Shown here: positions 50,277-58,389 of the stretch, one piece after another
Position numbering within the stretch: the first letter of the stretch is position 1
How the letters are laid out: every line of letters starts with the position of its first letter
Origin: Streptomyces spinoverrucosus
Lineage (GTDB): Bacteria; Actinomycetota; Actinomycetes; Streptomycetales; Streptomycetaceae
Direction: 5' to 3'
Length of the DNA stretch: 64,000 nt
NCBI RefSeq assembly: GCF_015712165.1
Contig: NZ_JADPZX010000001.1
Location: forward strand, 5,096,001 to 5,160,000
The notes under the pieces: model-generated
Database searches by the model: none
What the model saw: only the letters and a program-made list of their open reading frames with translations
Told to the model about the DNA's origin: nothing
Made by a program: the position numbers and the translations under genes

Positions 50277-50455
50277 CCAGAGCTCCTTCCGGAGGTGACT
50301 CAAAACCGACGATACGCCGGAGATGAGAGGTATGCGCATTAAGGCAGGCTATGGTCTGGACCTCTCGGCAGCTACCGTGGCACCAGGCACAACTCGCCTG
50401 CGCGCAGGCTGAACGCGGGGCGGAACGAGCAAGGCAAGGGGGAGGGCGCACCGTG

Positions 50456-51169
50456 ATGCGTCTGAGGGGCGGGGCGGCGGCCGCCGCGGCTGTGGCGCTA
50501 TTCGCCGTGGCCGGCTGCACAGAGCAGACCACCGGGAAGGGTGGTCCCGAGGGAACGGCCGACGGGGGCGCGGCCCTCGCGGCCGTGGAGTCGCTGCCCG
50601 TGAAGGGGCGTGCGCCGAGGACGGGGTACGACCGGGACCGGTTCGGCTCACCCTGGGCGGACACCGACTCCAACAGCTGCGACACCCGGGACGACATACT
50701 CAAACGGGACCTCGACGACGTGGAGTTCAGGGACGGCAGCTGCAAGGTGGCCTCCGGCAGCCTGGACCCCGACCCGTACAGCGGCAGGGACGTCACCTTC
50801 GTGCGCGGCCGCAGCCAGGTGGACATCGACCATGTGGTCGCCCTGTCCGACGCCTGGCAGAAGGGCGCCCAGAAGTGGGACCCCAGCAAACGCATAGCCT
50901 TCGCGAACGACCCCCTCAACCTCATCGCCGTCGACGCAGGCACCAACCGTGCCAAGGGCGACGGCGACACCGCGACCTGGCTGCCGCCCAACCGGTCCTA
51001 CCGCTGCACGTACGTGGCCGCGCAGGTCGCCGTGAAGAAGAAGTACGGGCTGTGGGTGACGTCCGCCGAGAAGTCCGCGATGACGAGAGTCCTCTCCGAC
51101 TGCCCCGGCCAACGACTGCCCACCGGCGGCAATCCCACACAGGCGCCGCCGCGCTTCCGCGCGGACTGA
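50456..51169 (+). CDS. Lipid-anchored HNH-type nuclease (DUF1524-like)
   Basis: The 237-residue protein has a lipoprotein signal: RLRGG, a hydrophobic Ala-rich stretch and lipobox AVAGC, with lipidation at the Cys (about residue 20). The mature part contains the GmrSD/DUF1524-type HNH motif: DIDHVVALSDAWQKGA, FANDPLNLIAVDAGTNRAKG, and later YGLWVTSAEKSAM. Conserved His of DIDHVV and Asn of NDPLNL fit a beta-beta-alpha metal nuclease. Four Cys in the mature part may form disulfides. It would be a membrane-anchored extracytoplasmic nuclease. GTG 50453 or ATG 50456 may start it; AAGGGGGAGG lies upstream of both. Confidence 0.88.
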   Translation: MRLRGGAAAAAAVALFAVAGCTEQTTGKGGPEGTADGGAALAAVESLPVKGRAPRTGYDRDRFGSPWADTDSNSCDTRDDILKRDLDDVEFRDGSCKVASGSLDPDPYSGRDVTFVRGRSQVDIDHVVALSDAWQKGAQKWDPSKRIAFANDPLNLIAVDAGTNRAKGDGDTATWLPPNRSYRCTYVAAQVAVKKKYGLWVTSAEKSAMTRVLSDCPGQRLPTGGNPTQAPPRFRAD

Positions 51170-53227: not shown

Positions 53228-53653
53228 TCAGCCGGTCCTCTCCCAGTCCTGGCAGCCGGACGTCTTGAAGTACGCGTCCGAAGCGCTGATCGTGACGACG
53301 GCCGTGCCGTTCACGCGGTTGCTCGCGATGATCGAGTCCACGGAGTGCTCGGCGTCCTTGGCGCGCTCCCAGTAGCAGATGCCGTCGGTGTTGCCGGTGG
53401 TGCGGTAGGTGCCGGGCTTGACGTCGGTACCGACCTGGAAGTCGCCGTCCCCCGCGAACGCGGCCTTCTCCTCGGCGGCCTTCGCGGCACCCGAGCCCCG
53501 CTCGCCGGCGGACGTGCGCTCCGCGGACGCCGAAGAGCCGCCCTTGTCGCCGCTGGAGTCGCCGCCGCTGCCGTCACCGGCGTTCGCCGATACGGCCCCG
53601 ATGACGACGACCCCCAGGATGATGCGGAGCGTGATCTTCCCCGCCATGCCCAT
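53228..53653 (-). CDS. Small secreted or membrane-anchored protein
   Basis: The 141-residue protein has an N-terminal hydrophobic segment (ITLRIILGVVVIGAVSANAG), either a signal peptide cut near SANA or an anchor, then a Gly/Ser/Asp/Ala-rich linker of about 40 residues. The C-terminal 65 residues (GDFQVGTDVKPGTYRTTGN, CYWERAKDA, FKTSGCQDW) form a small domain seen repeatedly in actinobacterial secreted proteins, with two Cys likely bridged. ATG 53653 has GGAGGGG 7 bp upstream. Function unknown. It diverges from the methylase gene. Confidence 0.78.
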   Translation of the reverse strand: MGMAGKITLRIILGVVVIGAVSANAGDGSGGDSSGDKGGSSASAERTSAGERGSGAAKAAEEKAAFAGDGDFQVGTDVKPGTYRTTGNTDGICYWERAKDAEHSVDSIIASNRVNGTAVVTISASDAYFKTSGCQDWERTG

Positions 53654-53733
53654 GGATGTACCCCTCCCCGATGCGTGTTGACTGGCCCCGTCTGGCAGTT
53701 CATCCGTTCGCGGGGTCAATAAGAGCAGAGCTT

Positions 53734-53784
53734 GTGAACCGAGTCAACACGATTCACGGGGTCGGGCCGGTACACGGCGTGAAC
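53734..53784. promoter_or_regulatory. Array of GTGAAC-like half-sites before the methylase gene
   Basis: Six-base words follow each other at exact 9-bp steps: GTGAAC (53734), GTCAAC (53743), ATTCAC (53752), a degenerate GTCGGG (53761), GTACAC (53770) and GTGAAC (53779). GTGAACCG and CGATTCAC face each other as an inverted pair (53734-53757). The array lies 100-150 bp before the start of the methylase gene, whose product has an N-terminal helix-turn-helix, so autoregulation is a reasonable guess. Confidence 0.5.
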
Positions 53785-53882
53785 GCATGGATCTTCCGCA
53801 ACGCCGCTATCCTCGGCCTCAGGCACCGGATGAACACCGGACGAGCACTGGGGACGAGCACCGGACGAGGGGAGTCACGCGG

Positions 53883-56042
53883 GTGCATGACAACGCGACA
53901 GAGGTGACCGCCGCCGGAATCGCCCGGCTCGCCGGCGTCGGCCGGGCCGCCGTGAGCAACTGGCGGCGCCGCCACGCCGACTTCCCCAAACCGGTCGGCG
54001 GCACCGAGACCAGCCCTGCCTTCGCCCTCGGCGAAGTAGAGGCCTGGCTGCGCCGACAGGGCAAACTCGCCGAAGTCCCCCTACGCGAGCGGGTCTGGCA
54101 ACACCTCGTCGGCCACCCCGAGGGCCCGGTCGTCGCCCTCACGCACGCCGGCTGTGTACTGCTGCTCATCCATGACCGGCCGACGGTGTGGCTGGAGGTG
54201 AGCGCCGGTTCCGACGAGCGGCTGGCGGCGATGCTGCCGGGGGCGTTGGAGCAGATGCTCGTGCCTCGGTTCGGTGGGCGACGGGTTCACGGCGGCGCGA
54301 CGAGGTCAGTCAGTGTGAATGCTGATACTCCTGTGAACGCCACATCAGCGGTTCACACCGCGCCCGGCGTGAACACTCCGCCCCCTGTGAACACTGCCCC
54401 CGCCGTTCACATCCCCCACGGCCCCGCCCTCCTCCCCTCCGCCCCCCTCCTCCGCGGCGCCGCCGAACTCGCCGCCGAGCTGGGCGCCCGCCAGACCTTC
54501 GAGTTCCTGCTCGGTCGGCACCTCGATGCCAACCCCCGCCAGTACACGCTCACCCCGACCGAACTCGCCCGCCTCATGGCCGACCTCGCCGGCCCCGCCC
54601 GCACCGTCCTCGACCCCGCCTGCGGCACCGGCGCCCTGCTGCGCGCCGCCGCCGCAGCCCCCGACCAGGAGATGTACGCCCAGGACAGCGCCCCCGACCT
54701 CGCGGCGCTCACCGCGCTCCGGCTCGCGCTGCACGGGCGGGCCACGGTCCGCGCTGCCGTGGGCGACACCCTGCGCGCCGACGCCCACCCCGGGCTGCAC
54801 GCCGACGCCGTCCTGTGTCATCCGCCGTTCAACGAGCGCAACTGGGGGCATGACGAACTGGCGTACGACCCCCGGTGGGAGTACGGCTTCCCCGCGCGCA
54901 CCGAGTCCGAGCTGGCCTGGGTGCAGCACGCGCTCGCGCGGCTGACGGACGGCGGTACCGCCGTGCTGCTCATGCCGCCCGCCGCCACCTCCCGCCGCTC
55001 CGGCCGTCGTATCCGCGCCGACCTGCTGCGCCGCGGGGCGCTGCGCGCCGTCATCGCGTTGCCGGTCGGGGCGGCACCGCCGTACAACATCCCCCTGCAC
55101 CTCTGGGTACTGCGCAGGCCCGAGAAGGCACCTGCGCAGCCGGAGCTGCTGCTTGCCGACGCGGGGCAGTTCGCGACCGAGGGGCGCGGCGGGCCGGACT
55201 GGCGGGCCGTGCGTGACGCGGTACTCGACGCCTGGCGGGAGTTCGACCGGGCCGGCTCGTTGGCGGAGCGGCCGGGGCTGGCGCGTTCCGTGCCGGTCAT
55301 CGAACTCCTGGACGACGACGTCGACTTCGCCCCGGCCCGGCACCTGCCGCCGCCCACCGCGGCCGACGGTGCCGAGCAACTCACGGTGGTGCGCGAGCGC
55401 CTCGGCGAGACCCTCCGACTGACCGTCGGCCTCACCCCGCCGCCCCCGCACACCGCATCGCCCACGCACACCGCATCGCCCGCGCGCTGGCCGCTCACCA
55501 CCGTCGGGGAACTCGCGCGCGGGGGCGCGCTGGTGATGCGTACCGGTGGAAACAGCGGCCACGCGCGCGTGCCCGTGCTCACCGACCACGACGTCCTCGC
55601 CGGAACGGCACCCTCCGGCACGCTTCCCGAGAGCGACGAGGAGGCCGTGCTGACGGAGGTGGGGGACGTCGTCGTGCCGGTGCTCGGTGGGGGCGCGGTG
55701 GCGCGCGTCATCGACGAGGCGACGGGGGGCGCCGCCCTGGGGCGCAACCTCGTCCTGCTGCGCCCCGATCCCACGGCGCTCGATCCGTGGTTCCTCGCCG
55801 GGTTCCTGCGCGGCACCGCCAACAACCGCCAGGCCAGCAGCTACGCCTCCACGGCCACCCGCCTCGACGTACGCCGCCTGCAACTGCCCCGGCTCGCGCT
55901 CGACGAACAGCGGCGCTACGGTGCCCGGTTCCGAGCCCTCGACGAGTTCGAGCGGGTGCTCAGGCACGCGAGCCGCCTCGGGGAACAGCTCGTACGCGGG
56001 ATGTACGACGGCCTGACGGACGGCACGGTCGCGCCTGAGTAA
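53883..56042 (+). CDS. Solitary HTH - N6-adenine DNA methylase - specificity-domain fusion
   Basis: The 719-residue protein has an N-terminal AlpA/MerR-like helix-turn-helix (AGIARLAGVGRAAVSNWRRR, about 10-30, ending in EVEAWLRRQ), a hexapeptide repeat linker (about 145-180), a type I-style HsdM methylase core (EFLLGRHLDANPRQYTLTPT; motif I DPACGTGALL; motif IV region VLCHPPFNERNWG) and a C-terminal HsdS-like domain (LTEVGDVVVPVLGGGAVAR, YASTATRLDVRRLQLPRL). In motif IV the usual Asn of NPPF is His, which may weaken catalysis. No restriction subunit is adjacent. GTG 53883 has GAGGGGA 9 bp upstream. It may be an epigenetic regulator or a derelict methylase. Confidence 0.85.
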   Translation: MHDNATEVTAAGIARLAGVGRAAVSNWRRRHADFPKPVGGTETSPAFALGEVEAWLRRQGKLAEVPLRERVWQHLVGHPEGPVVALTHAGCVLLLIHDRPTVWLEVSAGSDERLAAMLPGALEQMLVPRFGGRRVHGGATRSVSVNADTPVNATSAVHTAPGVNTPPPVNTAPAVHIPHGPALLPSAPLLRGAAELAAELGARQTFEFLLGRHLDANPRQYTLTPTELARLMADLAGPARTVLDPACGTGALLRAAAAAPDQEMYAQDSAPDLAALTALRLALHGRATVRAAVGDTLRADAHPGLHADAVLCHPPFNERNWGHDELAYDPRWEYGFPARTESELAWVQHALARLTDGGTAVLLMPPAATSRRSGRRIRADLLRRGALRAVIALPVGAAPPYNIPLHLWVLRRPEKAPAQPELLLADAGQFATEGRGGPDWRAVRDAVLDAWREFDRAGSLAERPGLARSVPVIELLDDDVDFAPARHLPPPTAADGAEQLTVVRERLGETLRLTVGLTPPPPHTASPTHTASPARWPLTTVGELARGGALVMRTGGNSGHARVPVLTDHDVLAGTAPSGTLPESDEEAVLTEVGDVVVPVLGGGAVARVIDEATGGAALGRNLVLLRPDPTALDPWFLAGFLRGTANNRQASSYASTATRLDVRRLQLPRLALDEQRRYGARFRALDEFERVLRHASRLGEQLVRGMYDGLTDGTVAPE
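54315..54410 (+). repeat. Six GTGAAC/GTTCAC words at exact 18-bp period inside the methylase gene
   Basis: GTGAAT (54315), GTGAAC (54333), GTTCAC (54351), GTGAAC (54369), GTGAAC (54387) and GTTCAC (54405) are each 18 bp apart. In protein they give a six-residue repeat beginning Val-Asn or Val-His, with Thr/Pro/Ala between. GTTCAC is the reverse complement of GTGAAC and keeps the frame. The same word occurs at 9-bp steps in the promoter. Confidence 0.85.
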
Positions 56043-56272: not shown

Positions 56273-56866
56273 ATGCATGGCCACGGCTACCCGCAGCCGG
56301 TGAAGCAGCCGCCCCCGACGGCGTGGCTGGTGCTCGTGCGTGTGCTGTTCGTGGTGATCTCCATCCTCAGCCTCGGCTTCCTGACCTGGACGATGCCGCT
56401 GCGCCTGGCCATCGTCACGCGCAGGTCGCTGGACTGGGGTCTGTTCGTGGCGGTGCTGGCCATCGACATCCTCGCCATGGTGCTCCTCGGCACCGAACCC
56501 GGCGAGGAGATCCACACCGCGGGCGGCTGGATCGGCGTAGCGCTGCTGCTGGGCACACTGGTGGCGATGATCGCGTACTACCTCGCCGCTGAGATACGCC
56601 ACTTCCACCAGCTCCGTCACGGCGGCGGCGGGTACGTGCCGCCGCCGAGCCAGGGGTACGGCTACCCGCAGTCGCCGACGCCGTACAGCAGCGTGGCGAC
56701 CGTGCCGCAGACACCCCCCACCGTGCCGCAGACACCCCCCACCCCGCCGCCACAGCGCCCCGCGCCCGCGCGCATCGACCAGGTGCGGGCCGAACTGGAC
56801 GAGCTCAGCGACTACCTGCGTAAGCAGGGCGGTCAGCGCGACGGCGAACACGAGGGCGGAAGGTGA
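56273..56866 (+). CDS. Three-span membrane protein, kinase operon
   Basis: The 197-residue protein has three predicted spans (about residues 15-34, 57-74 and 83-102), then a Pro/Gln-rich tail with an exact seven-residue duplication (TVPQTPP twice) and a helical C-terminus (RIDQVRAELDELSDYLRKQ). Its last codons overlap the GTG of the Ser/Thr kinase gene (GTGA), so the two are translationally coupled. It could be a membrane partner or substrate of that kinase. ATG 56273 has GGAG 6 bp upstream. No family recognised. Confidence 0.82.
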   Translation: MHGHGYPQPVKQPPPTAWLVLVRVLFVVISILSLGFLTWTMPLRLAIVTRRSLDWGLFVAVLAIDILAMVLLGTEPGEEIHTAGGWIGVALLLGTLVAMIAYYLAAEIRHFHQLRHGGGGYVPPPSQGYGYPQSPTPYSSVATVPQTPPTVPQTPPTPPPQRPAPARIDQVRAELDELSDYLRKQGGQRDGEHEGGR

Positions 56867-58389
56867 CCGTGACGACAGGACGTGTCGTCGCCGGCCGCTA
56901 CGAACTGGCCACGCTCATCGGGCAGGGCGGCATGGGCCAGGTCTGGACGGCGTACGACCGGCGGCTGGACCGGCGCGTGGCGGTGAAGTTGCTGCGCCCC
57001 GACAAGGTGGCCGGTCAGGAGGCCGACGAACTGCGGCGGCGCTTCGTGCGCGAGTGCCGGGTGACCGCGCAGGTCGACCACCCGGGGCTGGTGACCGTGC
57101 ACGACGCGGGCAGTGAGGGCGAGGAACTGTTCCTCGTCATGCAGTACGTCGACGGCGCCGACCTCTCCGACCATCTCGCCGAGCACGACCCGTACCCCTG
57201 GCAGTGGGCGGTCGCGGTCGCCGCGCAACTGTGCGCCGTACTGAGCGCCGTGCACGCCGTGCCGATCGTGCACCGCGACCTCAAGCCGCGCAACGTGATG
57301 GTGAAGCAGGACGGCACGGTCACGGTCCTCGACCTCGGCGTCGCCTCGGTCATGGACACCGACACCACGCGCCTGACGCACACCGGTTCGCCGATCGGTT
57401 CGCCCGCGTACATGGCACCCGAGCAGGCGATGGGCGGCGCGGTCGGCCCGTACACGGACCTGTACGCGCTCGGCGTACTGATGCACGAGCTCCTCAGCGG
57501 CGAGGTGCCCTTCGCGGGCTCGACGGCGCTCGGGGTGCTGCACCGGCATCTGTACGAGCCGCCGCCGCCCGTGCGCCGGATCCGCCCCGAGGTCCCCGAG
57601 GCGCTCGAAGCGCTGGTCCTGCGGCTGCTCGCCAAGGACCCGCAGCACCGGCCGGGCTCCGCGCAGGAGGTGTACGAGGACCTGGCGCTGCTGCTGCCCG
57701 CGCGCGGGATCCCCAGCGGTGCGCCTCTCGACCCCACGCGCCCCTTCCTGCGCCCGCACGCCCCCTGGCCGGACCGCGCGCGCACGCCCGCGCCCCAGCC
57801 CGCCCCCGTGGCGCCGGTCACCGAGAAACCGGACGTCGCGAGCGCCGTCGACGAGGTCAAGCGACTCCTCGGCGAGGGCCGTATCACCCAGGCCGTCGAC
57901 ATCCTCGGCGCGATCCTGCCGACCGCGGCCGAGCAGCACGGCGAGCACTCCCCGGTGGTGCGCACGCTGCGCAAGCAGTACGCCGCCACGCTCATGGACG
58001 ACGGCCAGTACCGGCGCGCGCTGCCCGAACTGCGCCGCCTCGCCGACGAACGCGCCGCCGAGGCCGGCCAGGCCGACCCGCAGTCCCTGCGGTTCCGCTA
58101 CGAGGCCGCCCAGTGCCTCGAACAGCTCGGCGAACCGGCGGCGGCGCTCGCCGCGTACCGGGCGCTGCTGCCGTACTACGAGAACCAGTACGTCTCCGGC
58201 GACCCCGAGCTCGCCCACGACGTCCGCCGCCGCATGGGGCACCTCCTGCTCGCCCTCGGCGACCGCGCCGCCGCGCACGACACGCTGGTGAGACTGCTGC
58301 ACGACGTCGAACGGCTGAACGGGCCGGGGCATCCGCTGGCGGTGGAGGTGCGGCGGACGTTGCAGTGGCTGGGACAGGTGCGCGGGTAG
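56863..58389 (+). CDS. Soluble Ser/Thr protein kinase with TPR-like C-terminus
   Basis: The 508-residue protein has a PknB-type kinase domain at about 10-270: glycine loop LIGQGGMGQVW, Lys in RRVAVKLLRP, catalytic loop IVHRDLKPRNVMV, DLG in place of DFG (VLDLGVASV), and APE as YMAPEQAMGG. Instead of a membrane span and PASTA domains it ends with helical TPR-like repeats (about 325-505; AVDILGAILPTAAEQHGEHS, DDGQYRRALPELRRLADERA, LGEPAAALAAYRALLPYYEN). It is therefore cytosolic and may be brought to the membrane by the three-span protein encoded just upstream. GTG 56863 is the most likely start; GTG 56869 is possible. Confidence 0.93.
   Translation: MTVTTGRVVAGRYELATLIGQGGMGQVWTAYDRRLDRRVAVKLLRPDKVAGQEADELRRRFVRECRVTAQVDHPGLVTVHDAGSEGEELFLVMQYVDGADLSDHLAEHDPYPWQWAVAVAAQLCAVLSAVHAVPIVHRDLKPRNVMVKQDGTVTVLDLGVASVMDTDTTRLTHTGSPIGSPAYMAPEQAMGGAVGPYTDLYALGVLMHELLSGEVPFAGSTALGVLHRHLYEPPPPVRRIRPEVPEALEALVLRLLAKDPQHRPGSAQEVYEDLALLLPARGIPSGAPLDPTRPFLRPHAPWPDRARTPAPQPAPVAPVTEKPDVASAVDEVKRLLGEGRITQAVDILGAILPTAAEQHGEHSPVVRTLRKQYAATLMDDGQYRRALPELRRLADERAAEAGQADPQSLRFRYEAAQCLEQLGEPAAALAAYRALLPYYENQYVSGDPELAHDVRRRMGHLLLALGDRAAAHDTLVRLLHDVERLNGPGHPLAVEVRRTLQWLGQVRG

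Follow-up and report, generated by a model that had tools for sequence, protein, structure and literature searches.

Can a gene hold, within its own reading frame, the operators used by its own product? This question is raised by a 64,000-nucleotide stretch of Streptomyces spinoverrucosus DNA (the window), in which six-base words related to GTGAAC, or to its reverse complement GTTCAC, lie upstream of and inside the gene for a 719-amino-acid methylase-like protein with an N-terminal helix-turn-helix (HTH). We consider it likely that this HTH-methylase-like protein binds the GTGAAC-type sites of its own promoter and autoregulates, with the sites in its linker as extra operators.

Sites in the promoter and in the linker

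A sequence-only reading of the locus had described GTGAAC-related words at exact 9-bp steps in the promoter and at exact 18-bp steps in the coding sequence, and counting confirmed the array. A 677-bp region contained eight GTGAAC/GTTCAC hexamers, where the frequency in the rest of the window predicts 0.31 (Poisson P 1.6e-9, for a region picked by eye and uncorrected for that choice), while the whole window held 37 hexamers against 24.6 expected from shuffles. The features concerned are the following:

53713..53731, + strand: conserved upstream element GGGTCAATAAGAGCAGAGC, columns 56-98% conserved, window letters identical to the column majority
53734..53757, + strand: main operator GTGAAC-CGA-GTCAAC-ACG-ATTCAC, conserved in homologues
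53770..53784, + strand: second promoter cluster GTACAC-GGC-GTGAAC, seen in the 81-promoter alignment
53808..53813, + strand: probable -10 element (putative role), TATCCT, column majority TATGCT
53883..56042, + strand: gene for the 719-amino-acid protein (HTH, linker, N6-methylase-like and HsdS-like parts), conserved GTG start
54285..54290, - strand: extra GTGAAC (GTTCAC on the + strand), outside the 18-bp register, 30 bp before 54315
54315..54410, + strand: intragenic linker array, six hexamers at 18-bp steps in both orientations, codon frame 0

Five of the six promoter slots at 9-bp steps matched (53734 GTGAAC, 53743 GTCAAC, 53752 ATTCAC, 53770 GTACAC and 53779 GTGAAC), slot 53761 (GTCGGG) being the non-match. 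The 18-bp slots of the coding array read 54315 GTGAAT, 54333 GTGAAC, 54351 GTTCAC, 54369 GTGAAC, 54387 GTGAAC and 54405 GTTCAC, with no match in the intermediate 9-bp slots. These in-frame hexamers encode V-N or V-H, and they include two perfectly inverted pairs of the form GTGAAC-N12-GTTCAC (54333-54356 and 54387-54410). When the linker was recoded with the gene's own codon usage (20,000 trials), a mean of 1.7 and a maximum of 4 hexamers were obtained, against 6 observed.

The promoter was aligned with those of the closest orthologues, namely the best 80 of 516 confirmed related stretches, giving 81 sequences with the window. Every base of the operator core GTGAACCGAGTCAAC was 95-100% conserved, and the surrounding promoter sequence was mostly less conserved, so that, judged by sequence conservation, an operator-like element is kept at the gene's own promoter. 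The main operator contains a 9-bp direct repeat of GTSAAC, and the whole element is an imperfect 24-bp palindrome. At least one exact hexamer was present within 300 bp upstream in all 81 promoters. Among the core homologues, GTGAACNNNGTCAAY was exact upstream in 100/105 and had one mismatch in the other 5; counted from the first site, RTTCAC occurred at +18 in 78/104, GTGAA at +45 or +46 in 97/104, and a -10-like TA...T hexamer at +73 to +75 in 95/104. The longest open reading frame (ORF) of the gene starts at 53787, and the conserved GTG lies at 53883, where G, T and G were 96%, 100% and 100% conserved in the 81 promoters. A divergent small gene without a Pfam match (window 53228-53647) shares the intergenic region with the operator. 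At locus L009 the upstream sequence differs and the operator is retained.

Conservation and register of the coding array

Codon usage was compared in the 56 of 81 linkers that could be parsed, which contained 267 hexamers (189 GTGAAC and 78 GTTCAC), all in frame 0. Valine was written GTT in 86/383 linker codons versus 21/2617 elsewhere in the gene, and V-H was written GTTCAC in 78/85 cases in the linker versus 0/40 elsewhere in the gene; this spelling was used in 6/115 cases across 331 further open frames at these loci. Synonymous differences were counted in 262 non-independent pairs (linkers longer than 35 amino acids, pairs 60-98% identical): hexamer Val codons, those before N or H, differed in 78/886 comparisons versus 225/299 for the other linker Val codons, and T, P, A, G and S codons of the linker showed 37-63% differences. 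Five draws of 20-23 disjoint pairs gave 8-10% for hexamer Val codons and 48-85% for other Val codons (in one draw 5/65 versus 19/27, the others being similar). At aligned Val positions GTGAAC stood opposite GTTCAC 80 times, the commonest change listed and one that needs two base changes, in a count whose pairs are non-independent and whose repeats may be misaligned.

Successive linker spacings were multiples of 9 bp in 212/241 cases (78 linkers of 81), and in 202/231 cases when the 51 distinct layouts were considered, whereas random placement (2000 trials) gave a mean of 31% and a maximum of 40%. Spacings of Thr (185/440) and Pro (274/756) in the same linkers showed at most a slight 9-bp preference. 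The sites mostly lie 18, 27 or 36 bp apart, in both orientations; since 27- and 36-bp steps leave one helical face, a 9-bp physical unit would fit better than helical phasing, and the constant frame 0 of the hexamers follows from the 9-bp register. BldC provides a comparison, each of its protomers binding one 9-bp direct repeat (excerpts of PMC5859096), and a 9-bp direct repeat, GTGAAC-N3-GTCAAY, is present in the promoters. By these sequence measures the coding array is a DNA-level feature within a fast-evolving linker, beyond a mere protein repeat; the sequence-only reading had supposed as much, and the codon use, synonymous-rate and spacing tests bore it out. The excess of periodic GTGAAC at orthologous loci, on which that reading had staked one half of its proposal, was present.

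The HTH, its motif and the methylase half in relatives

In order from the N-terminus, the protein comprises an HTH, a helical region, a variable linker, an N6_Mtase domain and an HsdS-like C-terminus, with these landmarks:

53904..54050, + strand: N-terminal HTH (mad1/HTH_17/AlpA-like), recognition helix GRAAVSNWRRRH; mad1 match, Pfam matches under the cut-offs
54498..55175, + strand: N6_Mtase domain PF02384 (Type I HsdM-like), from sequence and structure model
54819..54830, + strand: motif IV, HPPF replacing NPPF, from alignment to solved Type I methylases (residue 312)
55572..56000, + strand: HsdS-like C-terminal part with one target-recognition-like half (Specificity_I, E 4.5e-5)

All 12 HTH members matched the mad1 profile (best E 3.2e-8) and 11/12 scored with HTH_17 (E up to 0.1), individual Pfam matches being weak. 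The HTH sequence profile matched PDB entries weakly (AlpA 8c3t, E 0.0044; 2jml, annotated as 'DNA binding domain/transcriptional regulator', E 0.013). Two wing-like strands appeared in the full-protein model (block pLDDT, the predicted local distance difference test score, of 70-84) and none in the poor HTH-only model; structure comparison of the full model barely covered the residues before 64. The HsdS-like C-terminal part taken alone gave no Pfam match.

The recognition helix was compared with the upstream motif in 153 HTH-methylase loci, exact duplicates having been removed and near-identical relatives remaining; L141-L149, and any locus lacking a match to the HTH pattern, were left out. 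In group A (helix GRAAVSNWR, n = 135), which includes another family of the order and island paralogues with different upstream sequence, GTGAACNNNGTCAAY was exact within 330 bp upstream in 126 loci, while 5 loci had one mismatch, 3 had two and 1 had three. Shuffled upstream sequences gave 0/135 exact matches and 2 at one mismatch. Group B (helix TRATVSNWR, n = 18) had this motif in 0/18 (best, 3 mismatches) and its own, TGAAARCRNYGTCAA, exact in 17/18, which occurred at up to one mismatch in no A locus; both motifs were derived from those same groups. A TTGA word closely follows the motif in 8/18 group B paralogues (L017, L022, L023 and others of L182-L197, helix TRATVSNWRRR). In L024-L029, which belong to another family of the order, GTGAACACTGTCAAC is followed downstream by a second GTGAAC.

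Only in core-type genes were hexamer arrays observed. At least three hexamers occurred in the 330-900 nucleotides after the HTH in 53/105 core homologues, and at most one in 27/30 other group A genes and in 18/18 group B genes; the three exceptions with at least two (L039, L043 and L093) are core-like.

Motif sites also occur at defence-island genes. Twenty stretches chosen for their paralogues (376,385 bp) held 14 sites, of which 10 lay before an HTH-methylase gene (one of these, in L219, assigned by position), 2 before DrmA-like genes and 2 elsewhere. Six further stretches (114,509 bp), picked because sites had already been seen there, held 8: 3 before an HTH-methylase gene, 2 before DrmA-like genes and 3 elsewhere. 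The reversed-pattern control gave 0 matches over all 26 stretches. The exact motif stood upstream of 4/4 DrmA-like starts found, by a signature that was built from four starts already seen and may miss divergent DrmA genes; a library scan of one of the four, in L142, gave DrmA. The sites outside methylase and DrmA promoters (L142:8891, L145:4561, L143:3671, L214:7228 and L226:18722) are found, among others, at large ORFs that match helicase-type PADLOC profiles and at a divergent kinase/DruE-like promoter. In 10/26 non-core rows the motif begins 20-21 bp before TAGTAGCCT, which resembles a promoter -10 region. The element GTGAAYNNNGTCAAY, found before DrmA(-like) genes and large helicase-like ORFs (L142:8891, 17371; L145:4561, 13387; L214:1076; L222:8952), is a candidate operator through which the HTH-methylase may control DISARM-like islands.

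In the three genomes inspected, paralogues lie near DrmD and DrmA or near DruE-, DpdE- and PprPIWI-like genes and kinases, in DISARM-like/helicase islands with PADLOC MTase_I and a mad1-like HTH, where the same motif precedes genes. Pkinase genes lie near HTH-methylase genes or motif sites at the core locus as well as in the three islands inspected (window 56863-58389; L141:5095-6060; L143:2577-3659; L144:5488-7062; L146:11439-12737). Unlike the island paralogues, the window copy carries HPPF and stands alone between mfd (upstream) and mazG (downstream), recognised by eye from their translations; these neighbours suggest a core chromosomal locus. No HsdR or other partner nuclease was recognised by eye among the ORFs of 48-60 kb, for which no library search was made. 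A GmrSD_C protein (E 1.1e-22) is encoded near the gene at window 50351-51169, and the gene itself contains a second 18-bp repeat, CGCCCACGCACACCGCAT, of 2.5 copies at 55441-55485, unrelated to GTGAAC.

The HsdM fold and the S-adenosylmethionine (SAM) motif were found in the methylase half (ACGTG in 79/81), and the catalytic NPP[FYW] was absent. HPPF was invariant in 25 aligned homologues and present in 101/105 core homologues, the other four comprising two unparsed and two with other letters (a separate count parsed motif IV in 59/81). The 30 other group A loci had NPPF (n = 13), HPPF (n = 6), QPPS/QPPT (n = 6) or other letters (n = 5), and the 18 group B loci had NPPY (n = 16) or NPPF (n = 2). 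The QPPS or QPPT of L024-L029 appears to reflect an independent replacement of the catalytic Asn. The change from NPPF to HPPF suggests that the protein probably acts as a regulator and not as an active methylase; methylation may have been lost or altered, and cofactor binding may remain.

In the window's own genome, the 8.85-Mb assembly contained exact GTGAAC-N12-GTTCAC twice, each time in the methylase linker, with the promoter itself among the 18 matches at one mismatch; exact GTGAAC-N12-GTGAAC occurred at 4 places, one of them in the linker. Exact GTGAACNNNGTCAAC overlies the first codons of a short ORF, Rrf2-like by eye, at G000:C3:336286-336300 (L149), a possible second target.

Proposed feedback by the gene's own product and its alternatives

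A regulator that joins an AlpA/BldC-like HTH to a Type I HsdM-HsdS-like methylase, the catalytic motif of which is altered, would bind, through its HTH, the GTGAAC-N3-GTCAAY core at its own promoter, where the two words lie 9 bp apart; once bound, the protein would exert feedback on its own expression. Within part of the Streptomyces core lineage, operators would have spread into the linker between HTH and methylase, and the protein would occupy them cooperatively, at about 9 bp per protomer and perhaps like BldC. Extra operators are the most likely role for these linker sites, which may act as a roadblock or a titrating platform. Repression seems likelier than activation, because the motif starts 20-21 bp before the -10-like element in those 10 non-core rows and because other types of methylase repress in that way (excerpts of PMC3874152). 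That the motif tracks the HTH across paralogues is what is expected of an autoregulatory operator; of the iteron-like autoregulatory array proposed from the sequence, this part gained support, and 'iteron-like' describes a likeness of layout only. The array lies in a 7.8-Mb contig between mfd- and mazG-like genes (by eye).

Several observations weigh against this mechanism. Steps of 9 bp account for just 3/241 linker spacings, 18 bp predominating; the GTCAAC partner 9 bp away is missing from the linker hexamers, and two orientations misfit a strictly head-to-tail filament. In 41/105 core genes the region following the HTH lacks hexamers altogether; the coding array is therefore dispensable and would modulate, not enable, regulation. 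V-N is written GTGAAC in 58/102 cases in other ORFs, which makes the codon argument weaker for V-N than for V-H. YdaS_toxin (11/12) and HTH_28/HTH_23 (8/12) also score on the HTH members, none of them reaching the Pfam cut-off for member 1, and the HTH-only structure model scores poorly (pLDDT 57). Since groups A and B also form clades, the link between HTH and motif is partly phylogenetic and, with both motifs read off the groups, strong and not decisive. In the own genome 141 places match the operator motif with no more than one mismatch (30 for the reversed control), GTGAAC-N12-GTTCAC has 17 further one-mismatch places besides the promoter (reversed control, 3), and GTGAACNNNGTCAAY recurs exactly at three other sites, of which two are internal to coding frames and the third overlaps the first codons of the short ORF on contig C3; a further target beyond the own gene is possible.

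Those 141 matches, and the exact site at the start of another short ORF, would suit a different binder, for instance a global regulator of Streptomyces or an unlinked partner protein, with the protein's own HTH directed elsewhere. We regard this as unlikely, given that paralogues with a different recognition helix carry a different motif, and that the motif stays with the HTH-methylase in new surroundings and in a second family. The hexamers might instead be recognition or methylation targets of the protein's own methylase and HsdS-like half, or of another methylase, acting through their methylation state. The protein does combine an N6-methylase domain with one HsdS-like half, its SAM motif is kept, and GTGAAC-N12-GTTCAC is an inverted bipartite site; N12, however, is long for a Type I site and counts against such a role. 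This suggestion, also made in the sequence-only reading, gained no favour from the comparison, the catalytic Asn being His in nearly all core homologues; NPPF paralogues have the same promoter motif, which is thus independent of the catalytic state, and methylation targets appear highly improbable.

It is equally hard to credit that slippage or a V-N/V-H peptide repeat produced the coding array incidentally, with the promoter sites alone as operators. All 267 counted hexamers share frame 0 and some layouts look duplicated, in runs of 27-bp or 18-bp steps, but the shared frame is expected from the 9-bp register. Synonymous constraint is confined to the hexamer Val codons, V-H takes an otherwise rare GTT codon that gives the reverse complement of the V-N hexamer, and the two orientations repeatedly face each other in aligned pairs; for the hexamers, the peptide-repeat origin was rejected by the synonymous-rate test. 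Binding and feedback by the gene's own product remain our preferred explanation.

M.SsoII is an autoregulated Type II methyltransferase with an N-terminal HTH. Excerpts of PMC3874152 name Ecl18kI among such enzymes and describe methylase autorepression through the N-terminal HTH, the operator overlapping the own promoter. The present protein likewise has an N-terminal HTH on a DNA methyltransferase-type protein and an operator-like element at its own promoter, where repression would be expected by analogy. Unlike the Type II enzymes, it fuses a Type I-like N6-methylase with an altered catalytic motif to an HsdS-like half, it has a second array inside the coding sequence, and no partner nuclease was recognised by eye here. 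The HTH_17 group includes BldC and an Xis (excerpts of PMC11963761). Among the filament formers BldC, Xis, RdfS and Apl-Cox, the number of 9-bp repeats varies for BldC, and Apl needs several operators and spreads (excerpts of PMC5859096, PMC11963761 and PMC7498355). The present HTH resembles theirs in being small with weak HTH_17/AlpA scores, and it may share the BldC-type winged fold; it differs in its fusion to a large methylase and in sites of both orientations with linker steps of 18, 27 and 36 bp.

Autoregulating HTH-methylases and HTH regulators of 9-bp repeats are already known; an operator array in frame in the protein's own linker is new. No description of such an array was found in open-licence PubMed Central papers, where queries on GTGAAC, HTH with N-6 DNA methylase, DISARM and SCO3104, presumably the S. 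coelicolor number of the gene, returned nothing describing it. Excerpts of PMC13118837 and PMC12458937 do not mention it.

Because the sites are conserved as DNA, the gene probably holds switches used by its own product. An array that is preserved at the DNA level although the encoded peptide drifts, and that can switch strand, is unusual; GTGAAC-N3-GTCAAY is a candidate operator for DISARM-like islands in Streptomyces. More tentatively, and with rather more doubt than confidence, we suggest that a regulator from phage-defence islands was domesticated in the Streptomyces core genome, lost methylation and had its own operator array written into its coding sequence, linker length and feedback strength co-evolving and the SAM pocket possibly sensing methyl supply. 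If this were true, the linker would have room for as many as 12 sites, set in an almost strict 9-bp register.

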